Assembly (NCBI GenBank): GCA_025452005.1
Contig: JANWJK010000045.1
Coordinates: 1-64,000, forward strand
Direction of reading: 5' to 3'
Length of the DNA stretch: 64,000 bases
Source: Acetobacteraceae bacterium
Lineage (GTDB): Bacteria > Pseudomonadota > Alphaproteobacteria > Acetobacterales > Acetobacteraceae
Of the stretch, positions 12,722 through 25,843 are shown one piece after another; position 1 is the first letter of the stretch, and each line of letters opens with the position of its first letter. The notes beneath the pieces were generated by a model, which was not told the DNA's origin, made no database searches, and saw nothing but the letters and a program-made list of their open reading frames with translations. A program made the position numbers and the translations under genes.

Positions 12722-15079
12722 TCAGAACCTGAAGCGCAGTGCGCCGTAGATCACGTGTACCGAATCGTTGGGCACCACCGTACCCGGCAACAGCGCATTG
12801 GCGTACTGCGTCGCGCCCGCGAAGTACATGAAGTCCTTGTAGGTGAACCGTTCGAAGGCGTAACCGAAGAGCACCGTCATGTCCGGGCGGAAGGTGTACT
12901 CGCCGCGCAGGGTGACCACGTTCAAGGTGGACTTCACGTCCGGCAGAGGCTTCCAGACCAAGCTCGGAACCAGGGTCGGTGACGTGGTGGCGACCGACCC
13001 TAGGGCCGGGAAGACGCTGTCGCCGAACGCATAGGCGGTGTCGCCGGACGACAGATTGTAGTCGAAGGTGAACTTGAGGACATTAGGAATGGCCTGCCAG
13101 TCGACCTTCGCTCCGAACGTGTTGACGGAGTCGGTGGTCTGCGCGTTCCAGGGGAACGTGTAACCCCCGGAAAGATAGATGCTGCTCTGGTCATAGAAGA
13201 TCTGCTGGTAGGTGTAGTAGGCATGCGCACTCAGTGAAGGAGTGATCTGCCAGGAGATGTCCGGCCCGACGGAAAGGTTGTGGTTGTTGCGCAGTCCGTA
13301 GGTGCCCTCCGGATAAACGTCCTTGGCGTACTTCACCATCAATGACCCGGTCAGGTCGTTCGTCGGCGAAGCATCGATCGTCCCTTTTACCTCGTCATGC
13401 CTGCGCGACGCCTCGAAGAACATGAAGAACCCCTGGGGGTTGGGTTCGTACGCCGTGCCGCTGATCAGCTCTTGCGAGATACCATTGTCGTAGTTGTGCG
13501 CCGTGCGGTTCTGGTGCGAATAGCTCACGCTGCTGAACACGTCATCGAACAATTGGCTGCGGAGCTTGGCTGTAATTTTGTTCGAGGTGACCAGGGACGT
13601 GTCGGCGAAGGTCCGATTGACGATTTCGAACGTATCGTTCAGCAGGAACTTGGTCTGCGGCAGGATGCGATAGCTGGCCTCCGCCGTGATCGTCTGATGC
13701 TTGTAGCTGTACGGCGCGTTGAAGCAGAGGCCGGTGCCCAGCAGGTTGCAATCGTTGTTTGCGTTATTGCTGGTATTGCTGCGGGTATCCACCTGATAGC
13801 CGTTGCGCGGGCTCTGGTTGTCACGATTGTCGATCGAATAGGACAAACGCAGGTCCAGTTTCGGGATGGGCTGATAGGTCAGAGCGGCGTTGCCGAACAG
13901 CGTCTGTACCAGGCCGTCGAAGCTCGACCTCGGCTCGTGCTGGATGTTGACCGGGTCGCCCGACCCAATCGGGAATGAGTCATTCTGCAACTCCACCCCG
14001 TAGGCGAAGTTGGCATTGAAACGCATCGTCGGGCTGATGTTGTAGCCCACCAAGGCCTTGACCTGATGCGCCGAATTGGACGGCGGGAGCGAGTAGGGGA
14101 TGTAGAGATTGGCGGCCGACGTCCCGAACGTGGTAGTCGGGTTCAGGTTGAACGGGTTCTGCAGGTTGAACTGCGTCATGTTGTCCTTGAAGTTGCTGAA
14201 GGTATAGCCAAGCTGTACCTGCAGCTTTTCGTCGCCGTATGCGGCAAGGACTTCGTATCGATCGGTGTCGTAGTCGATCGGCATGGCGAAGTAGCCGAGG
14301 CCGCTGGTCACTCCTACCGAGGCGGCGGGTGGGATGTTACGTGAGCCACCGGTTCCCGCGGTCGTCAGGGCGACCGTGCCGCCGATTTCTGCCGAATTGG
14401 CCTGATACCCCGTCTTGTGTTCGTGCCGGATCGCTCCGGTGATGGTCCAATCACCCCATTGATACTTGCCGGTACCGGTGAATACGTCGCGCCGGGTGCC
14501 GATGTTGTAGTTGAACAGTCTTGCCGCCAGTGTCGGACTCGGAACCGGCAGCCAGAGCGAGTTGACGGCACCGACGCCCGGGACGAACGGTGTCGCGGGA
14601 TAGAGCAGCGGAATGCTGCCAGGCGGCACGCCGGGAACCGTGGTGCCGTTGTTCGTCCATACGCTATGGAAATTGTTCGTCGCCTCGTACGGGATGCCGT
14701 CATACGAGAAGGTCAGTCCCCAGGTGCCTTGCTGGCCGGCCCTCGCGCTGAATGACCGGTCCCAGAAGCCCAGGTTCGCGCCCTGCACGTCCCAGTAATT
14801 GGTACCGCCGGAGTCCCAGGCATCGCGCTGGCCGAGGTGGAAGTCGCCCAGGCCATAGAACCCGGGAGCCACCGCACCGCTGAATCGGCCGAGATAGTAC
14901 GACCCGTCGCTTTGATACTGGCTGCCGACCGTGACCCAGTTGGTGGGCGGGGGCGCCAGGACCGCCGCTTCCGGCTTCTCGCCGATATCAAAGCCGCTGT
15001 CGCTTTGTGCCAACGCCGGCAGAGGCAGCAGGCACACGACCGCAACACGAACGATGCGGAGGGGAGTGATGCGTGTCAT
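12722..15079 (-). CDS. MtrB/PioB-family outer-membrane beta-barrel protein
   Basis: 785 aa with signal peptide, alternating beta-barrel pattern, C-terminal aromatic 'YGALRFRF', adjacent to decaheme cytochrome. Confidence 0.85.
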   Translation of the reverse strand: MTRITPLRIVRVAVVCLLPLPALAQSDSGFDIGEKPEAAVLAPPPTNWVTVGSQYQSDGSYYLGRFSGAVAPGFYGLGDFHLGQRDAWDSGGTNYWDVQGANLGFWDRSFSARAGQQGTWGLTFSYDGIPYEATNNFHSVWTNNGTTVPGVPPGSIPLLYPATPFVPGVGAVNSLWLPVPSPTLAARLFNYNIGTRRDVFTGTGKYQWGDWTITGAIRHEHKTGYQANSAEIGGTVALTTAGTGGSRNIPPAASVGVTSGLGYFAMPIDYDTDRYEVLAAYGDEKLQVQLGYTFSNFKDNMTQFNLQNPFNLNPTTTFGTSAANLYIPYSLPPSNSAHQVKALVGYNISPTMRFNANFAYGVELQNDSFPIGSGDPVNIQHEPRSSFDGLVQTLFGNAALTYQPIPKLDLRLSYSIDNRDNQSPRNGYQVDTRSNTSNNANNDCNLLGTGLCFNAPYSYKHQTITAEASYRILPQTKFLLNDTFEIVNRTFADTSLVTSNKITAKLRSQLFDDVFSSVSYSHQNRTAHNYDNGISQELISGTAYEPNPQGFFMFFEASRRHDEVKGTIDASPTNDLTGSLMVKYAKDVYPEGTYGLRNNHNLSVGPDISWQITPSLSAHAYYTYQQIFYDQSSIYLSGGYTFPWNAQTTDSVNTFGAKVDWQAIPNVLKFTFDYNLSSGDTAYAFGDSVFPALGSVATTSPTLVPSLVWKPLPDVKSTLNVVTLRGEYTFRPDMTVLFGYAFERFTYKDFMYFAGATQYANALLPGTVVPNDSVHVIYGALRFRF

Positions 15080-15098: not shown

Positions 15099-16043
15099 CT
15101 AGCGTGTGAAGAAAGCGCCGTTGGGGCTGTTCGAGCCGTGGATCTGCGAGTGGCAGTTCACACAGCCTCTGGCCATCATCCGTAGGTTGGCGGCGATCTG
15201 CCCGGGCAGGTTCTGACCGGCCATCGGCTGCGCCTGATGGCCGCTTTCACCGTGGCAGTCCTGGCAGAGATACGGCGCACGCTGGACCAGCAAGGCCGGC
15301 TGGGTGGAGCCGTGCGGCGTGTGGCAGTTCAGGCAGTTCTCGCGCACCGGCTGGTGCTCCCACAGCACCGGGCCGCGCTTCTCCATGTGGCACGTGTAGC
15401 AGGTCTCGTTGACAGTGAATTCCTTCAGCAGCTTCGGACCCGGCGAGCCGTGCGGATTGTGGCAGTCGGCGCAGACCACCAGGCCTTCGCGGATCGGGTG
15501 GTGCGTATACTTGAAAGAGTCGGCCCGCTGTTCCGCATGGCAGGTGAAGCATTTCTGGGGCTGGGTGAACTTCACCAGGATCGGATCCTTGGCGATATGG
15601 ATCGTGTGGCAGGAGTTGCAGGCGAGATCGTTGCGCTGGTGCTGACTGCCCTGCCAGTTCATGCGCAGGCCCGCCTGATGGCAGGTCAGGCATTGCTGCG
15701 TGCGGATCGCGGCGGGCGAGATGTTGGGGCCCTTGAACACGACGTTCGGCGAGTTGGTCCGGCTGGCGACATGCGCTGCACTGGGACCGTGACAACTTTC
15801 GCAGCCCAACTGCCCGAACGGCGCACGCGGATCGCCCTGCGTCGAATGCGGCGTCTGCAGGATCGGCACGACCTTGGCATCCGTGTTGTGGCACTTGAGG
15901 CAGGTCTGCGCTCCGCCGCCGGCAAAGGCGGGGGGTTGTGCGGCCGCCGGGACCGCAGCGTGCGGCGGCTGCGCCAGTGCCGGCACAAGACCCGCGAGCA
16001 TCAGGAAGCCGGAGAGCAGCACCGCGTTGATCATGCTGGGCAT
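15099..16043 (-). CDS. DmsE/MtrA-like periplasmic decaheme c-type cytochrome
   Basis: Signal peptide and ten CXXCH motifs: CLKCH, CESCH, CLTCH, CNSCH, CFTCH, CADCH, CYTCH, CLNCH, CQDCH, CVNCH. Confidence 0.92.
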   Translation of the reverse strand: MPSMINAVLLSGFLMLAGLVPALAQPPHAAVPAAAQPPAFAGGGAQTCLKCHNTDAKVVPILQTPHSTQGDPRAPFGQLGCESCHGPSAAHVASRTNSPNVVFKGPNISPAAIRTQQCLTCHQAGLRMNWQGSQHQRNDLACNSCHTIHIAKDPILVKFTQPQKCFTCHAEQRADSFKYTHHPIREGLVVCADCHNPHGSPGPKLLKEFTVNETCYTCHMEKRGPVLWEHQPVRENCLNCHTPHGSTQPALLVQRAPYLCQDCHGESGHQAQPMAGQNLPGQIAANLRMMARGCVNCHSQIHGSNSPNGAFFTR

Positions 16044-16079: not shown

Positions 16080-17054
16080 CTATTGGCGGACCGCGACCAG
16101 GTCAGCATTGCCGCTGTTCAGCACCAGCGTTCGCTCGTAGGAGACATAGTGGAAGCGGCGCGCGGCATGGCCGGAGTGGATGGCGAAGCCGATGTGATAG
16201 GTGTTGCCAGGCGCGATGCTGCTGTAGGGCGGGCTCGCATTCAGCGGGCGGCTCAGCGTCACCGACAATGTGCCGCCCGACTGCGTCCCCTCGGCCGTCA
16301 CGATCGAGGGGCCGGCCACATCCCGCTTGTCGAACACCAGTTGGGTCGCCGCCCTGGCCGGCTGCCCGGGATTGAGCAGGGCCTGCCAGTACTCGAGCTG
16401 GTAGCCGTCAGCCCTGAGCTTGGCGAGTTGATCCGGCGCGACCAGGGCATCCCCGCCGCCTTGCCTGGTCAGCTTGGCGCGGGTGCGCGGCAGATACATC
16501 GTGCGCGTCGCGCCCTGGGCACTCGGCATGTTGGTCAGGTCATCGTGGCACGCCGCCCAGCAGCCGCCGCGATTGGCCTCGGACACCTTGCCGTTGTCGA
16601 ACATCACCGTGACCTTGGTGGCATACGCCGGGTCCTGGCGCGCGTCGGGCTGCGCGCCCTCGTTGACGTCCAGGTGCACGTAGAGATTGGTCCCGTCGTT
16701 GGCGACCTTGACCGTCGCCAGGATGGTGCCGGGCTTGCCGGGGATCGGCGTCGGCTCGATCGACGGCTTCTCGCCGGTCTTGAACACACGCGGTTTGCCG
16801 CTAACGATCTGCGGCCCCATGTCCTTTTCTTCACCGATATGACAGGTCGAGCAGTTCTTGCCTTTGCGGAAGTCCTCCGCGCCAGACATGTCGTTGGTCG
16901 TCAGCGCCCACTCCCAGGACGACTGGCCCGGGTAGAACAGAACGACCTCCTTGCCGGGAACGCTCGCCCAGTTGATCCCCGCGCCATGCGCTGCGGGGGA
17001 GGCGAACAGTGCCGCTATTCCTGCGGCGGCGATGGTGCGGAGCGCGGTTGACAT
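16080..17054 (-). CDS. Periplasmic c-type cytochrome with ethylbenzene-dehydrogenase-like heme-binding domain
   Basis: Signal peptide, 'GKNCSTCHIGEEKDMGP', 'GGCWAACHDDLTNMP' (CX3CH), C-terminal 'TYHIGFAIHSGHAARRFHYVSYERTL' as in EB_dh-type domains. Confidence 0.75.
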   Translation of the reverse strand: MSTALRTIAAAGIAALFASPAAHGAGINWASVPGKEVVLFYPGQSSWEWALTTNDMSGAEDFRKGKNCSTCHIGEEKDMGPQIVSGKPRVFKTGEKPSIEPTPIPGKPGTILATVKVANDGTNLYVHLDVNEGAQPDARQDPAYATKVTVMFDNGKVSEANRGGCWAACHDDLTNMPSAQGATRTMYLPRTRAKLTRQGGGDALVAPDQLAKLRADGYQLEYWQALLNPGQPARAATQLVFDKRDVAGPSIVTAEGTQSGGTLSVTLSRPLNASPPYSSIAPGNTYHIGFAIHSGHAARRFHYVSYERTLVLNSGNADLVAVRQ

Positions 17055-17461
17055 GGTGCGGCTCGCTTTCGTGATTTCGTTAGGGAGATGCGGTGGAGCA
17101 GGAAGCGACGGGGCTGCGGCGTGGCGAGTACGGAGGTCCGCCGGCCGCTGAATCGTTGCGGCGGGAGTCGCGTGCTCCATTGCTGCCGTTGTCCCCATGG
17201 CGTCATCCCCGGTCGCGACGGCGGCTGATTGACCGTCCCCGAAGAACGTCAACTCCACCGGCAGCGTATCAATTCCGCTATTATCATGACTCTCGGCGCG
17301 TTGCCTGTAGAGCCAGATTACCGAATTCTAATGATACCAGTTGCGGACAAGTTGTTGAAAGTACATACATTCCGCCCGCCGTGAATGTTACGTTCATTCA
17401 GCGGTAGTACGGCATGATTCGGCTGGTGTGGCGGTCGTGCAACAGAAGCACGACGCTCAGG

Positions 17462-18091
17462 TCAATCGTCGAAGCCCTTGATCTCGTCGACCACCGGCAG
17501 CGTGTGTGCGATGCCCTTGTGGCAGTCGATGCAGGTCTTCTCGCCGGTCAGCAACTGCGCTTGATGGACGCTGGCCGCCTGCGGCTTCTGCTTGGCGAGG
17601 TCCATAGATTCGGGTCTGTGACAAAAGCGACACTCTGCCGAGCGATTCGCCTGCATGCGCGCCCATTCGTGCTGCGCGAGCTCCAGGCGTTTGTTCTGGA
17701 ACTTCTCTCGCGTGTCGAGGACGCCCAACAGGTGTCCCAGCACTTCGGTGGAAGCCTGCATCTTGCGCGCGATCTTCAGCGTCCAGGGATGCGGCACATG
17801 ACAATCGGAGCAGATGGCGCGCACGCCCGAGCGGTTGGCCCAATGGATCGTGCCGTGCAGCTCCTGATAGACGTTGTCACGCATCTCATGGCAACTGATG
17901 CAGAATTCCTCGGTATTGGCGACTTCCATCGCAGTATTGAACGTGCCCCAGAATAGCACGCCGGCAATGAAGCCGCCGACCGTCAGGAACAGCAGGCTGA
18001 AATGCGTGGCCGGCCGGGCAACCGTCCAGGTCCGCAAGCGGCCGAACAGCCTTGACCAGAACCCTTGGCGACGGGCGGGCGCATCGGACAC
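17462..18091 (-). CDS. NapC/NirT/CymA-family membrane-anchored multiheme cytochrome
   Basis: N-terminal TM helix then CISCH, CSDCH, CRFCH, CIDCH. GTG start at 18091 proposed; alternative ATG 18157. Confidence 0.88.
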
Positions 18092-18101
18092 GCCGCAGCC
18101 C

Positions 18102-18389
18102 TTACCACGGTCCGGGCAGTCCGGTGAGCCTGAAATACGTCCAGAATGCGAACCCATAGGCGCCGACGACCGCCACCGTCACGATCGGGCAGACCACGAT
18201 CGCGAGGACGACGAAGCTCGCTGCCTCCCGCCATCGCCGCCGTCCCGCTACTTCGGCCTGACCGCCATCGGTCAGCGTCCATGCCTCCCCCGCCATCTGG
18301 AGGCCGTCTCCCGAGCCGGGGAAATAGGGCGAAGCGGCAGACTGCGGGTCGGATTGGAATCTCGCTCGGTTTCTCGCCGCCAATCGCAT
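18102..18389 (-). CDS. NapE-like small membrane protein
   Basis: C-terminal '[37 protein letters not shown]' is NapE/TorE-like; adjacent to NapC-like gene. Start uncertain. Confidence 0.7.
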
Positions 18390-18569
18390 GGCATCCCCCG
18401 GTGTAGAGTTTGGAGCGGTCAGATTTTGTGGTAACAATTCGCGACTATCACAATGGCGTTATCATTTTGTAGGCCCAATGTATCGGCTTTTGATAGGTCC
18501 AGCTCGCGTGCCTCGGTCGCACATATCGGGATTCATCAAGTAATTTTGGATGATTCGGCATCGTCTCGC

Positions 18570-20063
18570 TCACTTGGCCGCCGCAATGGCGGCCTGATGG
18601 GTGGCGAGCAACATTCCGGCCAACTCGGCAACCCGTGGCTCGGCCTGTCGCTCCTGAAGCGAGCCAAACCCGATGAGCACCGCCTCGCCCGGCGCCCCAC
18701 GCTCGGACGGCGACGCGGCGGCCTCCAGCCCGCAACGCCTGGCGACGCCCGCCACATCGGCGGACGGTCCGAAATCGCTCGGGGGAAACCACGCGAGGTG
18801 AAGGCCGGCGTGCCCGCCCCAGATCAGCGAGGCAGCCCCGAAATGCTGCCGCAGCGCGTCGACCAGCGCAGCGCTGCGGCTGGCATAGGCCTTGTCCAGC
18901 CGGTGGACGTGTCGTGCGTAGCCGCCACCGTTCAACAGTTCGGCCAGCGCGGTCTCCTCCAGCCAGTGCCGGCTGTCGTCGATCAGCGCCCGGGCGGCGA
19001 GTGCCTGGGATATCAGCCGGTGCGGCATGACCATGTAGGCGAGCGTCACCCACGGTCCGAGCGACGCACCGAACCCGCCGATCAGGCACACCGACTCCTG
19101 CCGGTCCAGGCTCATCAACGGCGGCGTATGGACATTGTCGTAACGGAGATCGCCGTCGCAGTCCTCTTCCAACACCAGGGCGTCGGCACGTCCCGCCCAT
19201 TGCAGCAGCGCTGCGCGACGTTCCTCGGCAAGTGCCACGCCGAGTGGCCGCTGATGCACCGGGGTCACGTACAGCAATGCCGCTGGCCCCTCGGGCAGCC
19301 GCTCGGTGCGCAGTCCGCTGGCGTCCACCGGAACGCGGACCACATCGGCGGCCGCCCTGGTCAGGGCGCCCGCGGTCAGCGGATCGCAGGGATCCTCCAC
19401 CACGGCCCGCGCGCCTGGCCGCAACGCCACCTGAAGGGCGACATGCAGCGCCTGCTGGCGTCCGTTCACGATCACCACCTGGTCCGGCGCAATCGCCAGC
19501 CCGCGCGACGTGGACAGCCACGCGGCGATGCCGGTGCGCAGCGCAGGACTGCCGTCCGGCAGCTCGGCGCCGAGCTGCCGGCCGATGCGGTCGAGCGCGC
19601 CACGGATCAGCGTGCGCCAGCGCACCGCGGGGAACAGCGACGGGTCGGCATGACCAACCCCGGCCTCGGTCCAGGCGCGCGGCTGTCGGGCGGGGGGCGC
19701 GAGCGGCGTCTGCCGCTCCGCCAGTCCCGTGCCCTGGTGCAACGACGGGCGAGACACGAAGGTCCCTTTCGCCGGCATCGTCTCGAGGTAGCCTTCGGCG
19801 ATCAGCCGCTCATAGGTCAGCACGACGGTGATACGCGATATAGCGTATTGTTCCGCGAGCATACGGGTGGAAGGCATGCGCGAACCTGGCGCCAGCCGCG
19901 CGGAGGCGATGAGGTCGCGCAATTGGTCGTAGAGCTGCCGCTGCAGCGGCTGATCGCGCGCAAGGCTGAGCGGAAGCCGCACTACGCAGCTCCTGACCGC
20001 GTTGGATGAGCGCGTGACATGCTGCGGCCTGCCGGCATCGACCTGAACTCCCCGAGTGCCCAA
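18570..20063 (-). CDS. MocR-type regulator (GntR wHTH fused to aminotransferase-fold domain), start uncertain
   Basis: '[65 protein letters not shown]' then fold-type-I domain '[14 protein letters not shown]', '[12 protein letters not shown]'. Confidence 0.85.
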
Positions 20064-20244: not shown

Positions 20245-21462
20245 ATGGTCGCATTTGCTGCCTATTGCCGGCAGTCGCTGGACGCCATCCGCGCACAGGG
20301 GCGTTATCGCGAATTCACCTCGTTGCAGAAGCAGGCCGAGCGTTTTCCGTATTACCGCCGCGGCGACGGCTCCGAGGTCCTGGTCTGGTCCTCCAACGAC
20401 TACCTCGCCATGGGCGGCCACCCCATCGTGGTAGAGGCCGCCTGCCAGGCCGCGCGCACTATGGGCGCCGGTGCCGGCGGCACGCGGAACATCAGCGGCA
20501 CCAGCCCATTGCACGACGCGCTCGAGGCAGAACTCGCTGCGCTGCACGGCAAGGCGGCGGCGCTGTTGTTCACCTCGGGTTTCGTGTCCAACCACGCCAC
20601 GCTCTCGACCGTGCTGAACAGCCAGCCCGCCGGTCCCGGCAATCCATGGCACGTGTACTCAGACGCCAAGAACCACGCGTCGATGATCGCCGGGATCAAG
20701 GGCTCGAAGGGCATCTGCCACATCTTCCGTCACAACGACACGGCGCATCTCGAGGAACTGTTGCGCGCCGCGCCGGCCGGAGCGCCACGACTGATCGCAT
20801 TCGAATCGGTGTATTCGATGGATGCCGACATCGCGCCGATCGAGGCGATCTGCGATATTGCCGAACGTTACAGTGCCGTGACATACCTCGACGAGGTGCA
20901 CGCGGTGGGGATGTACGGCGCGAACGGCGGCGGTGTCTCCGAGCGCGACGGGGTGGCGCATCGCATCGACATCATCGAGGGCACGCTCGCCAAGGCGTTC
21001 GGCTGTCACGGCGGCTATATCGCGGGCGACGCCGATGTCGTCGACTACGTCCGTTCGGTGGCGCCCGGCTTCATCTTCACGACCTCGCTGCCGCCGATGA
21101 CCGCCGCCGCCGCACTGGCCAGCGTGCGCCACGTGAAGGCCGACCACGCGCGGCGCGCCCGGCTGTTCGAGCGCGCCGACGCGCTGAAGCATCGCCTCGA
21201 TGCCGCCGGCCTGCCACGCATCGCGTCGGCCAGCCACATCGTACCGCTGCACGTCGGCGAGGCTGCGCTGTGCAGGGAGGTCAGCCGGCGCCTGCTCGAC
21301 GAGTACGGGATGTATGCCACGCCGATCAATTACCCCACGGTGCCGATCGGCGAGGAACGGCTGCGCTTCACCCCCACGCCGCTGCACACCGACGCCATGA
21401 TGACGGCGCTGGTCGACGCGCTGGGTGCCATCATGGCGCGGGCGCGACGCGCCGCCGCCTGA
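20245..21462 (+). CDS. hemA: 5-aminolevulinate synthase
   Basis: '[14 protein letters not shown]', '[43 protein letters not shown]', '[23 protein letters not shown]', '[14 protein letters not shown]'. Confidence 0.92.
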
Positions 21463-21475
21463 TACACGCCCGGCG

Positions 21476-23464
21476 ATGATCACCGAACTCGGCCACTTCG
21501 CGCTCATCCTCGCGCTCTGCGTCTCGCTGACGCAGTCGCTGGTGCCGCTGATCGGGGCGGCGCGCGGCAACCTCGCGTGGATGGCCGTTGGCCGGAACGC
21601 AGCATTGGTGCAGTTCGCGCTGGTGGCGCTGGCGATGGCGGCGCTGATGCACGCCTACGTCACCTCCGACTTCTCGGTGGTCAACGTCGTGGAGAACAGC
21701 CACACCGACAAACCGTTGCTCTACCGGATCACCGGGGTGTGGGGGAACCACGAAGGATCGATGGTCCTGTGGGTGTTCATGCTCGGCGTATGCAGCGCGG
21801 CGCTGGCTTTGTTCTCCGGCAACCTGCCGCCTGATCTGCGCGCGCGCGTGCTCGCCGTCCAGGGTATGATCGCCACCGGCTTCCTGTTGTTCATCCTGCT
21901 CACCTCCAACCCGTTCCTGCGCACATGGCCGCCGGCGGCGAACGGCCACGGCCTCAATCCCGTGCTGCAAGACCCTGGTCTCGCGTTCCATCCGCCGTTC
22001 CTCTATCTCGGCTATGTCGGCTTCTCGGTCGGCTTCGCGTTTGCGGTCGCCGCGCTGATCGAAGGCCGCGTGGATGCCGCATGGGCGCGCTGGGTCCGGC
22101 CGTGGACGCTCGCCTCCTGGTGCGCCCTGACCATTGGCATCGCGATGGGAAGCTGGTGGGCCTACTACACGCTGGGCTGGGGCGGCTGGTGGTTCTGGGA
22201 CCCGGTGGAGAACGCCTCGTTCATGCCGTGGCTGGTCGGCACTGCGCTGATCCACTCGTCGATCGTGGTGGAGAAGCGCGACACCATGAAGAGCTGGACC
22301 ATCCTGCTGGCCATCATCACATTCTCCCTGTCGCTGGTCGGCACCTTCCTGGTGCGCTCCGGCGTGCTGACGTCGGTGCACTCGTTCGCCACCGATCCGG
22401 CCCGCGGCACCTTCATCCTGCTGCTGCTGGTGGTCGCGATCGGCGGCTCGCTGACGCTCTATGCGGTCCGGGCGCCGTCGCTGAAGGGCGGCGGGCTGTT
22501 CGCACCGGTCTCGCGCGAGGGCGCGCTCGTGCTGAACAATCTGCTGCTGTCCTGCGGCTGCGCCACGGTGCTGCTCGGCACGCTCTATCCGCTGTTCCTG
22601 GACGTGGTGGGCGGGCCGAAACTGTCGGTCGGCTTTCCGTTCTTCAACCGCACCTTCGTTCCGCTGATGGTGCCGATCATCCTGGCGGTCGGCATCGGCC
22701 CGATGCTGTCATGGAAGCGCGGCGATCTGCTTGGCGCGCTGCAGCGCCTGGGAGCGGCGTATGTCGCAGCGGCCGTCGCGGTGATGGTGGCGTTCTATGT
22801 CACGCATGGCGGCCCGATCCTGGCGGTGCTGGGCTTCGGGCTCGCCGCGTGGACCGGTGCCGCCGTGGTGGTGGAATGGGCCGAGCGCGTCCGCCTGTTC
22901 CGCGCCCCGGCCGCCGACAGTCTGCGCCGCGCCATCCATCTGCCACGCGCCGCCTATGGCATGAGCTTCGCGCATTTCGGCCTGGCGGTATCGATCGCCG
23001 GTTTCTCCGCCTCGGCGTTCGATGTCGAGGCGATCGAGACAGTTCGTATCGGCAGCGACCTGAAGGTCGCAGGCTACGTATTGCGTCTCGCCGATGTACA
23101 ACGGTTGCCTGGACCTAATTATATCGCTGACGATGCGACTGTGGAAATCAGCCGCGACGGGGGGTTGGTCGCGGTGGTGCACCCCGAGCGGCGCTTCTTC
23201 CCGCTGCAGCAGCAGACCACGAGCGAGACCGCGATCCGTACCAACCTGCTGTCGGACCTCTATGTCGCGCTGGGTGAAAGCGACGATGCCGGCAACTGGA
23301 CGCTGCGCGCCTACTGGAAGCCGCTGGTGCCGTGGATCTGGATGGGTGCGGTCATCATGGCCTTCGGTGGCATGGTCAGCCTGAGCGACCGGCGCTGGCG
23401 GATCGGCGCTGCGGCGCGTGCCCGCCGCAGCGGCCCCCTGTTGCAACCTGCCGCGGGCGAGTGA
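21476..23464 (+). CDS. ccmF: Cytochrome c heme lyase subunit CcmF
   Basis: 'YRITGVWGNHEGSMVLWV', WWD region 'LGWGGWWFWDPVENASFMPWL', multi-TM. Confidence 0.95.
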   Translation: MITELGHFALILALCVSLTQSLVPLIGAARGNLAWMAVGRNAALVQFALVALAMAALMHAYVTSDFSVVNVVENSHTDKPLLYRITGVWGNHEGSMVLWVFMLGVCSAALALFSGNLPPDLRARVLAVQGMIATGFLLFILLTSNPFLRTWPPAANGHGLNPVLQDPGLAFHPPFLYLGYVGFSVGFAFAVAALIEGRVDAAWARWVRPWTLASWCALTIGIAMGSWWAYYTLGWGGWWFWDPVENASFMPWLVGTALIHSSIVVEKRDTMKSWTILLAIITFSLSLVGTFLVRSGVLTSVHSFATDPARGTFILLLLVVAIGGSLTLYAVRAPSLKGGGLFAPVSREGALVLNNLLLSCGCATVLLGTLYPLFLDVVGGPKLSVGFPFFNRTFVPLMVPIILAVGIGPMLSWKRGDLLGALQRLGAAYVAAAVAVMVAFYVTHGGPILAVLGFGLAAWTGAAVVVEWAERVRLFRAPAADSLRRAIHLPRAAYGMSFAHFGLAVSIAGFSASAFDVEAIETVRIGSDLKVAGYVLRLADVQRLPGPNYIADDATVEISRDGGLVAVVHPERRFFPLQQQTTSETAIRTNLLSDLYVALGESDDAGNWTLRAYWKPLVPWIWMGAVIMAFGGMVSLSDRRWRIGAAARARRSGPLLQPAAGE

Positions 23465-23469
23465 CACCG

Positions 23470-24003
23470 ATGCGCCGTGTGCTGTTCCTGGCGCCGTTGT
23501 TGGTGTTCATGGTGCTCGCCTGGTATTTCGCATCCGCGCTGCGGCCCGACCGCAATCCGCAGGAGCTGCCATCGGCGATGATCGACAAGATGGCGCCGGC
23601 ATTCGACCTCGCAGGCCTGCACGGTGAAGGCGTCGCCCGCGACGCGTTGAAGGGCGCGCCGGTGCTGATCAACTTCTTCGCTTCCTGGTGCGTGCCGTGC
23701 CGCGTGGAGCACCCGCTGCTGATGCGGCTCGCCGAACAGGAGCACGTCGCCATCTACGGCATCGACTACAAGGACAAGCCGGAGGACGCGACGAAACTGC
23801 TGGCGCAATTCGGCGACCCCTACCGGCGGGTTGGCCTGGACCAGGACGGCCGCGTCGGCCTGGACTTCGGCGTCTACGGCGTGCCGGAAACCTACGTCCT
23901 CGATGGCGCGGGAAAGATCCGCAAGCGCTTCGTCGGCCCGCTGACCGCCGCTCAGGTGGACAACGACCTGCTGCCGCTGCTGCACAGTCTGCGCAGGTCA
24001 TGA
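23470..24003 (+). CDS. ccmG: Thiol:disulfide interchange protein CcmG/DsbE
   Basis: 'LINFFASWCVPCRVEHPLL', 'GVYGVPETYVLDGAGKIRKRFVGPLT', N-terminal anchor. Confidence 0.95.
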   Translation: MRRVLFLAPLLVFMVLAWYFASALRPDRNPQELPSAMIDKMAPAFDLAGLHGEGVARDALKGAPVLINFFASWCVPCRVEHPLLMRLAEQEHVAIYGIDYKDKPEDATKLLAQFGDPYRRVGLDQDGRVGLDFGVYGVPETYVLDGAGKIRKRFVGPLTAAQVDNDLLPLLHSLRRS

Positions 24004-24467
24004 GGCGCGTTGCCTTTGCGATCATGCTGTTGCTCGCGCTCGGATTGCGCGCGTTCGCGGTCGAACCGGCCGAGCGGCTGGCTGATCCCGCGCTGGAGTC
24101 ACGCGCGCGGGCAATCAGCGCGACACTGCGGTGCCTGGTCTGCCAGAACGAATCGATCGACGATTCCGGCGCGAGCCTGGCGCACGACATCCGCGTATTG
24201 CTGCGCGAAAGGCTGCTCGCCGGCGACACCGATGTGCAGGCACGTCAGGCGATCGTCGATCGCTATGGCGATTTCGTATTGCTGGACCCGCCTGTGAAGC
24301 CCGCCACCTATCTACTGTGGTTCGGACCCGCCGGGATGCTTCTGGCGAGCCTCGTCGGCACCGTTGTATGGCTGCGCCGCCGTCCGGTTGCGACGCCAAG
24401 CGTTGCGCCGCTGACGCCGCAGGAACAGGTGCGCCTCGAAGGGCTGCTGCGCGAGGCCGATTGCTGA
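24000..24467 (+). CDS. ccmH: Cytochrome c maturation protein CcmH/CycL
   Basis: 'ISATLRCLVCQNESIDDSGASLAHDIRVLLRERL', 'DRYGDFVLLDPPVKPATYLLWFGP'; ATGA overlap with ccmG. Confidence 0.95.
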   Translation: MRRVAFAIMLLLALGLRAFAVEPAERLADPALESRARAISATLRCLVCQNESIDDSGASLAHDIRVLLRERLLAGDTDVQARQAIVDRYGDFVLLDPPVKPATYLLWFGPAGMLLASLVGTVVWLRRRPVATPSVAPLTPQEQVRLEGLLREADC

Positions 24468-25843
24468 TGCTGCTTGTCGTCGTGCTTGCCGTGGTCGCGC
24501 TTGGCGCGCTGGCGCTGGTTTGCCTGCCGCTGCTGCGGGGCGCGCGGGGTGTCGCCGAGCGAGCGCAATTCGACCGTGTCGTCTACCGCGATCAGCTCCG
24601 CGACGTGGAGCGCGACCTCGCGCGTGGCGTGCTGAACCCCAACGAGGCCGAGTCCGCACGGCTGGAGATCCAGCGCAGGCTCCTTGCGGTGGATGAGGTT
24701 TCGCCAGGCAGGAATCTGACGTCGCGCCGCAGCCTGCGTCTCTCAGCCATCGTTGCCCTGGCGACGGCTTGCGGCGCGGGTGGGTTGTACTGGTGGTTCG
24801 GTGCAGCCTCGCTGCCCGACGCGCCCTACGTGATGCGGGTCGCGCAACGGACCGACACGCGGCCGGGCGCTCAGCATCTCGACATGCAGGATGCCGCCTC
24901 GCGGCTCGAGCAGAGGCTCCGCTCGGATCCCTCGAACGCGGAAGGCTGGCTGTTGTACGCGCACACCGTTGCGTCGCTGGGCAATTGGCCGAAGGCAGCC
25001 GATGCGTATCGCCACGCGATCGATCTTGGCCAGAAGGCGCCGGATGTGCTCGCCGGCTATGGCGAGATGCTGGTGCTTGCGGCGGAAGGGATCGTGCCGC
25101 CGGCGGCGCGCGAAGCCTTCGCCACAGCGCTCGCGGCAAATCCGAAGCACGACGTCGCGCGCTATTACCTCGCCCTGGCCGACAGCCAGGCCGGCGACGA
25201 TCCCAAGGCGATCCGTGCATGGCTGGCGCTGGCCGCCGATATTCCCGACGACTCGCCGATGCGCGAGTCGATCTCGCGCGGTATCGCCGCGGCGGCCAAG
25301 GCCGGCAGCCTTGCCGTGCCGCCTCTGCCGAAGGGCACGCCGCCGCCACCCGGCCCCACCGAGGACCAGATGGCCACCGCCGCGCAGATGCCGGAAGCGC
25401 AGCGCAACGAGATGATACGCGGCATGGTGGCGCAGCTCGCCGCGCACCTGGACAGCGAGCCTGGCGATCTGGACGGCTGGCTGCGTCTCGGCCGCTCCTA
25501 TTCGGTACTTGGCGAGACCGACAAGTCGGTCGATGCCTATGCCCATGCACAAAAGCTTCGACCGGACGATGTCGACATCAAGCTGCTGGCGTTCCGGGCG
25601 ATGATCGCCGGGCTGCAGCCGACCGACATCCTGCCGCCGCGGGCCCTGGCGCTGCTGCGAGAGGTCGCGACAACAGCGCCCGACCAGCCGGAGGTGCTCT
25701 GGTATCTTGGGGTCAACGCTGCGCGCGTCGGCCGCCCTGACGAGGCGCGCAGCAACTGGTCGAAGCTGCTGAGCGAACTGCCGCCGGACGGGGAAGACAG
25801 CAAGCTGGTCAAGAGCGCACTGGACTCACTTCCAGGGAAGTGA
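24467..25843 (+). CDS. ccmI: Cytochrome c maturation protein CcmI (TPR)
   Basis: Two N-terminal TM segments, 'DRVVYRDQLRDVERDLARGVL', TPR-like 'GWLLYAHTVASLGNWPKAADAYRHAI'; overlaps ccmH stop. Confidence 0.9.
   Translation: MLLVVVLAVVALGALALVCLPLLRGARGVAERAQFDRVVYRDQLRDVERDLARGVLNPNEAESARLEIQRRLLAVDEVSPGRNLTSRRSLRLSAIVALATACGAGGLYWWFGAASLPDAPYVMRVAQRTDTRPGAQHLDMQDAASRLEQRLRSDPSNAEGWLLYAHTVASLGNWPKAADAYRHAIDLGQKAPDVLAGYGEMLVLAAEGIVPPAAREAFATALAANPKHDVARYYLALADSQAGDDPKAIRAWLALAADIPDDSPMRESISRGIAAAAKAGSLAVPPLPKGTPPPPGPTEDQMATAAQMPEAQRNEMIRGMVAQLAAHLDSEPGDLDGWLRLGRSYSVLGETDKSVDAYAHAQKLRPDDVDIKLLAFRAMIAGLQPTDILPPRALALLREVATTAPDQPEVLWYLGVNAARVGRPDEARSNWSKLLSELPPDGEDSKLVKSALDSLPGK

Follow-up and report, generated by a model that had tools for sequence, protein, structure and literature searches.

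The regulator encoded between a hemA-ccm cluster and a multiheme cytochrome operon in an Acetobacteraceae genome is probably a natural PLP-independent MocR that controls an extracellular electron-transfer regulon. This is the best reading of the sequence comparisons made around the window, by which we mean the whole 64,000-nucleotide stretch analyzed here (contig JANWJK010000045.1). Loss of PLP binding is well supported by the alignments, and the protein is predicted to be unable to form the internal aldimine. The gene and the codons that bear on its PLP site are located as follows.

18570..19982, minus strand: gene of the MocR-type regulator that lacks the PLP lysine (470 aa; begins with GTG, preceded by AGGAG)
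19065..19067, minus strand: codon of Ala306, at the PLP-lysine position (GabR K312), from the alignment with GabR
19158..19160, minus strand: codon of Cys275, at the GabR Tyr281 position; not diagnostic, as Cys also occurs in Lys-bearing paralogues
19044..19046, minus strand: codon of Thr313, at the conserved-Arg position (GabR R319), from the comparison of the clade with other MocRs

The original prediction had placed a MocR-type regulator at 18570-20063. The open reading frame is real and contains the motifs that were quoted. It encodes a GntR winged helix at the N-terminus (Pfam PF00392, E 5e-15, 55.3 bits against a cutoff of 27) and a fold-type-I aminotransferase-like domain at the C-terminus (Pfam PF00155 Aminotran_1_2, E 7e-7, 29.2 bits against a cutoff of 19.7). 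Its start is, however, most likely GTG 19982 and not TTG 20063, because an aligned ATG (MLIPLKL...) opens nearly all orthologues and AGGAG lies just upstream; the protein then has 470 residues. The closest solved structures in a single-sequence search were PdxR 7pq9 (1e-45) and GabR 4n0b (2e-44), and a profile of the orthologous clade matched GabR 4n0b over its whole length (E 6e-76).

In an ungapped block, GTFS-K312-SL of GabR aligned with GGFG-A306-SL of the window protein, and EDD-Y281-D aligned with EED-C275-D. Ala thus stands at the PLP-lysine position, as predicted. Four other PLP contacts (GabR Y205, D279, R319, and S311) are all replaced. The only lysines are K72 in the winged helix, K470 at the C-terminus, and K364, which corresponds to GabR position 369 beside a basic patch on the surface of the connecting helix. 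None of the three aligns with the pocket, which argues against an alternative lysine at the PLP site. The Cys that was predicted in place of the DYD-type Tyr is present, but it carries no weight as a sign of PLP loss, because Lys-bearing MocRs of the same bacterial family commonly have Cys there; a paralogue in the same genome (L002) keeps FSK together with DDCD.

We compared 16 full-length Acetobacteraceae orthologues with 24 other MocRs. The PLP lysine was found in none of the orthologues and in all 24 other MocRs, and the same was true of the GabR Tyr205 equivalent. The equivalents of Asp279, Arg319, and Ser311 were kept in 4/16, 1/16, and 1/16 orthologues, respectively, versus 24/24 each in the other MocRs. 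The residue in place of Lys is not a conserved Ala; it varies among Ala, Thr, Gly, Ser, and Leu. The orthologues form one clade on one side of a branch with 100/100 support. They are also clearly set apart in a profile search of Acetobacteraceae genomes, with scores of at least 539 bits against less than 386 for the next match. Across 386 genomes from the class, the best match outside the orthologue set scored 410 bits and had the Lys intact. Scans of viral contigs, made to add sequences to the alignment, yielded no relative. As all 16 orthologues lack the Lys and belong to one supported clade, the loss is, on this alignment, clade-wide and not a local mutation, and the view that the internal aldimine cannot form is strengthened.

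The clade has remained under purifying selection. Mean pairwise identity was 71% in the winged helix versus 50% and 43% in two parts of the aminotransferase domain. The dN/dS values were 0.14-0.32 in four orthologue pairs. With intact frames, these values and a DNA-binding domain conserved above the rest of the protein indicate that mocR is alive, and a pseudogene reading was ruled out (frames intact, dN/dS <0.33).

The neighboring genes in the window are listed below.

12722..15079, minus strand: MtrB/PioB outer-membrane porin (PF11854, 3.9e-113), the only one in this assembly
15099..16043, minus strand: decaheme cytochrome of the DmsE/MtrA type (TIGR03508, 302 bits, cutoff 192)
16080..17258, minus strand: EB_dh heme-binding protein (PF09459, 3.5e-26), true start probably at about 17057
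17462..18157, minus strand: NapC/NirT-type cytochrome c (Cytochrom_NNT, 2e-71)
20245..21462, plus strand: hemA, 5-aminolevulinate synthase, divergent from mocR (TIGR01821, 541.6 bits)
21425..25843, plus strand: ccmF-ccmG-ccmH-ccmI, cytochrome c maturation

Thus, mocR sits between hemA-ccmFGHI and the napC, EB_dh, decaheme, and MtrB/PioB genes, in the arrangement that had been noticed earlier. The same operon of NapC, EB_dh, decaheme (MtrA/DmsE), and MtrB/PioB genes is the usual neighbor of mocR across the orthologues, and ccm genes are frequent. An EB_dh gene occurs in 10/200 genomes of the family, nine of which carry the Lys-less regulator, a raw count uncorrected for the relatedness of the genomes. 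In orthologous loci, pdx genes were neither neighbors of mocR nor targets of the element described below; cytochrome and MtrB genes took both places.

The empty site has been remodeled in a clade-specific manner.

19458..19460, minus strand: codon of Arg175, at the GabR T181 position; clade-specific, 15/16 (the exception has His)
19383..19385, minus strand: codon of Asp200, at the position of the ring-stacking Tyr (GabR Y205); 13/16 have Asp

Arg175 lies in what we take, from knowledge of the family, to be the loop that binds the PLP phosphate in fold-type-I enzymes. The residue replaced by Asp200 is the ring-stacking Y205 in GabR (PMC6677901). Trp155 and Trp398 are present in 16/16 clade members, and all four residues are rare or absent in Lys-bearing relatives. 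AlphaFold2 models of the full protein (5 rows, pLDDT 65, pTM 0.49) and of the aminotransferase domain (4 rows, pLDDT 50) were both too poor to place Arg175 and Asp200, to be superposed, or to judge the pocket or the head-to-tail dimer of the MocR subfamily, and we used only the fold match to GabR/PdxR. We tentatively propose that this MocR lineage exchanged PLP for another ligand or for a built-in plug of Arg175 and Asp200, and became a dedicated regulator of the extracellular electron-transfer conduit in Acetobacteraceae.

The main rival to the preferred reading takes the first of these two routes. The pocket would be repurposed for a small molecule other than PLP, with Arg175 anchoring an anionic group, and a metabolite linked to respiration or to the conduit would be sensed. 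Drift alone would not give conservation as high as that of Arg175, Asp200, and the two Trp residues. However, the Arg-Asp pair might just as well serve as a structural plug, and no ligand is indicated, so we regard a new ligand as conceivable but do not favor it. A PLP-blind regulator of the conduit is the simplest reading, and the operator evidence bears on it next.

Comparison of the DNA following mocR across the orthologues yielded the element CTGGTATCATTAAATTCCGGAAAGCTGGGMCTAC and variants one base longer (34-35 bp). A CTGG box forms each end; the two boxes point the same way, and their starts are separated by 24 or 25 bp. Two copies were located in the window.

17307..17340, minus strand: predicted operator, strong copy, ahead of the EB_dh, decaheme, and MtrB genes (score 37.9; exact pattern match)
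18469..18502, minus strand: a weaker and degenerate copy that lies between mocR and napC; its score of 11.7 falls in the range given by shuffled windows, and it was assigned by position only

The score of 37.9 came from a model built without the window, and the best of 10 shuffled windows scored 12.8. The weak copy occupies the place of the strong copy in the orthologues. In 200 genomes of the family, the exact pattern was found at 12 sites in 9 genomes, all 9 carrying the Lys-less regulator, and in 0/190 genomes without it; these counts, too, take no account of relatedness. A reversed-pattern control gave 0 sites in the family genomes. In G163, the tenth genome with the regulator, the copy deviates from the pattern by one base. 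A clear element was missing in three orthologues (L088, L089, and L091), in which it is diverged or absent near a cytochrome operon that is itself incomplete or absent; the regulon is possibly lost there.

The element was also found away from the regulator gene. In G014, a genome listed with 7% contamination, two elements lie on another contig, each ahead of a decaheme-MtrB operon, and one copy stands before a lactate permease. At L119:4572-12348, two decaheme-MtrB operons lie in tandem and each has an element to itself; the Lys-less mocR of that genome is on another contig. MocR operators are typically direct repeats with a TGG core (PMC5320631). We infer that the CTGG element is the predicted operator of the Lys-less MocR, and that the conduit is its predicted regulon, reached in cis and, in a single genome, also in trans. 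The regulon and the operator are newly proposed here, and the CTGG element is new.

The element might instead belong to a co-occurring factor, such as an alternative sigma factor or activator, with the Lys-less MocR being only a minor local regulator. Element and regulator mostly share neighborhoods, and cis linkage alone could yield much of their correlation. Against this, G014 bears the regulator and has the element before unlinked conduit operons, G076 has an EB_dh-decaheme-MtrB operon with neither regulator nor element, and the repeats are direct repeats of the MocR type. We therefore consider a different owner of the element unlikely, and retain the Lys-less MocR as its candidate binding protein.

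The original prediction had offered heme or an ALA-pathway intermediate as the ligand, with hemA under control of the regulator. In its favor, hemA is divergent from and adjacent to mocR in four loci (the window, L034, L035, and L039), and the multiheme cytochromes make a demand for heme plausible. In most other orthologous loci, however, hemA is absent from this position and the cytochrome operon is usually adjacent. The strong element lies ahead of the cytochrome genes and not ahead of hemA, and no clade-specific invariant Cys or His was found among the orthologues. Sensing of heme or of an ALA intermediate is very improbable on these grounds. No 5-aminolevulinate synthase gene other than the window hemA was found in this 74% complete assembly, so this hemA is probably the housekeeping copy. 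Least probable of all the readings is an ordinary PdxR-like action through non-covalent PLP or a borrowed Lys, for which the NCBIfam PdxR equivalog model speaks with 324.2 bits against a cutoff of 320, but which is at odds with the positions of K72, K364, and K470 and with the loss of the Asp279, Tyr205, Arg319, and Ser311 equivalents in most or all of the clade.

How a PLP-blind regulator might act can be outlined with lower certainty. As it cannot bind PLP, the protein may be locked in an apo-like state that binds direct repeats, and in such a state its output would depend mainly on its own level. Arg175 and Asp200, in place of the phosphate-loop and ring-stacking residues, would either plug the vacated pocket or create a site for a new ligand. 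The regulated target would be the trans-outer-membrane electron conduit of NapC, the EB_dh-type heme protein, the decaheme MtrA/DmsE, and MtrB/PioB, and the direction of regulation may be either activation or repression. A TTGAY-N4-ATCAA-like box, presumably the site of an FNR/FixK-type regulator, was found upstream of mocR, within the divergent promoter, in nearly all orthologues (L034, L035, L039-L044, and L086-L092). The window itself has no FNR-type box with two or fewer mismatches. The level of the regulator may thus be linked to oxygen in most orthologues, though not through such a box in the window.

Among known systems, the EnuR K302H mutant of Ruegeria pomeroyi is likewise a MocR without the PLP Lys; it still dimerizes and binds DNA and is a PLP-blind repressor (PMC8739950). 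It carries a single engineered change, whereas the loss in the window clade is natural and old and is accompanied by the loss of further pocket residues. In Pseudomonas aeruginosa, the K314A substitution in MpaR abolishes activation (PMC10790758), so activator function does not necessarily survive when a MocR loses its Lys. MpaR is similar in that the gene lies beside the respiratory gene it controls, ccoN4, but unlike the window MocR it keeps K314 and Y284, its operator is a short palindrome, and its target is a terminal oxidase subunit (PMC10790758).

PdxR of Bacillus clausii (PDB 7pq9/7zla) shares the two-domain architecture and gave the best structure match as well as a model score above the cutoff, and its apo form also favors direct repeats (PMC5320631). 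In PdxR, a Lys holds PLP and the regulated pathway is PLP synthesis, whereas the window protein has lost the PLP contacts and its neighbors are electron-conduit genes. GabR of Bacillus subtilis (PDB 4n0b) is alike in architecture over the full length, and its operator is a direct repeat (PMC5320631), as is the candidate element; its K312, Y205, D279, Y281, and R319 are replaced in the window protein, and there are no GABA genes nearby. The MtrAB/PioAB/DmsEF conduits share the decaheme cytochrome, the MtrB/PioB porin, and the NapC-type protein with the window, which differs in its EB_dh-type heme protein and linked MocR regulator. Porin-cytochrome clusters have been reported with passenger genes for maturation or heme supply (PMC8805035).

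Dependence on PLP is described for the MocR class as a whole, and this clade is a conserved natural lineage that lacks the cofactor site but has retained the fold, the selection, and a conserved candidate operator. If the reading is correct, the aminotransferase domain would be able to signal, or merely to dimerize, without PLP. For the porin-cytochrome conduits of Acetobacteraceae, the analysis puts forward a candidate regulator together with a candidate operator and regulon; the literature searched contained no regulator for such conduits in this family, and MocR, MtrB, and extracellular electron were not found together in it. For the proteins of this clade, the name PdxR from NCBIfam misleads, and automatic annotation would misname the window gene, since the equivalog model scores above its cutoff despite the loss of the PLP site.

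Other MocR genes encountered in the comparison have also lost the lysine. A second, separate Lys-less lineage (L068/L069; L093:7082-8524, minus strand) has Met at this position, and genes for GNAT and polysaccharide deacetylase proteins lie close by. Another separate loss was seen in L074, with Glu at the PLP-Lys position. MocR, MOSC, and rubredoxin-like domains occur in one open frame in L074 (370-2889, minus strand), L084 (352-3150, minus strand), and L085 (1447-4110, plus strand); the fusion was identified by Pfam in L047, which is the L074 gene, and by the same sequence pattern in L084 and L085.
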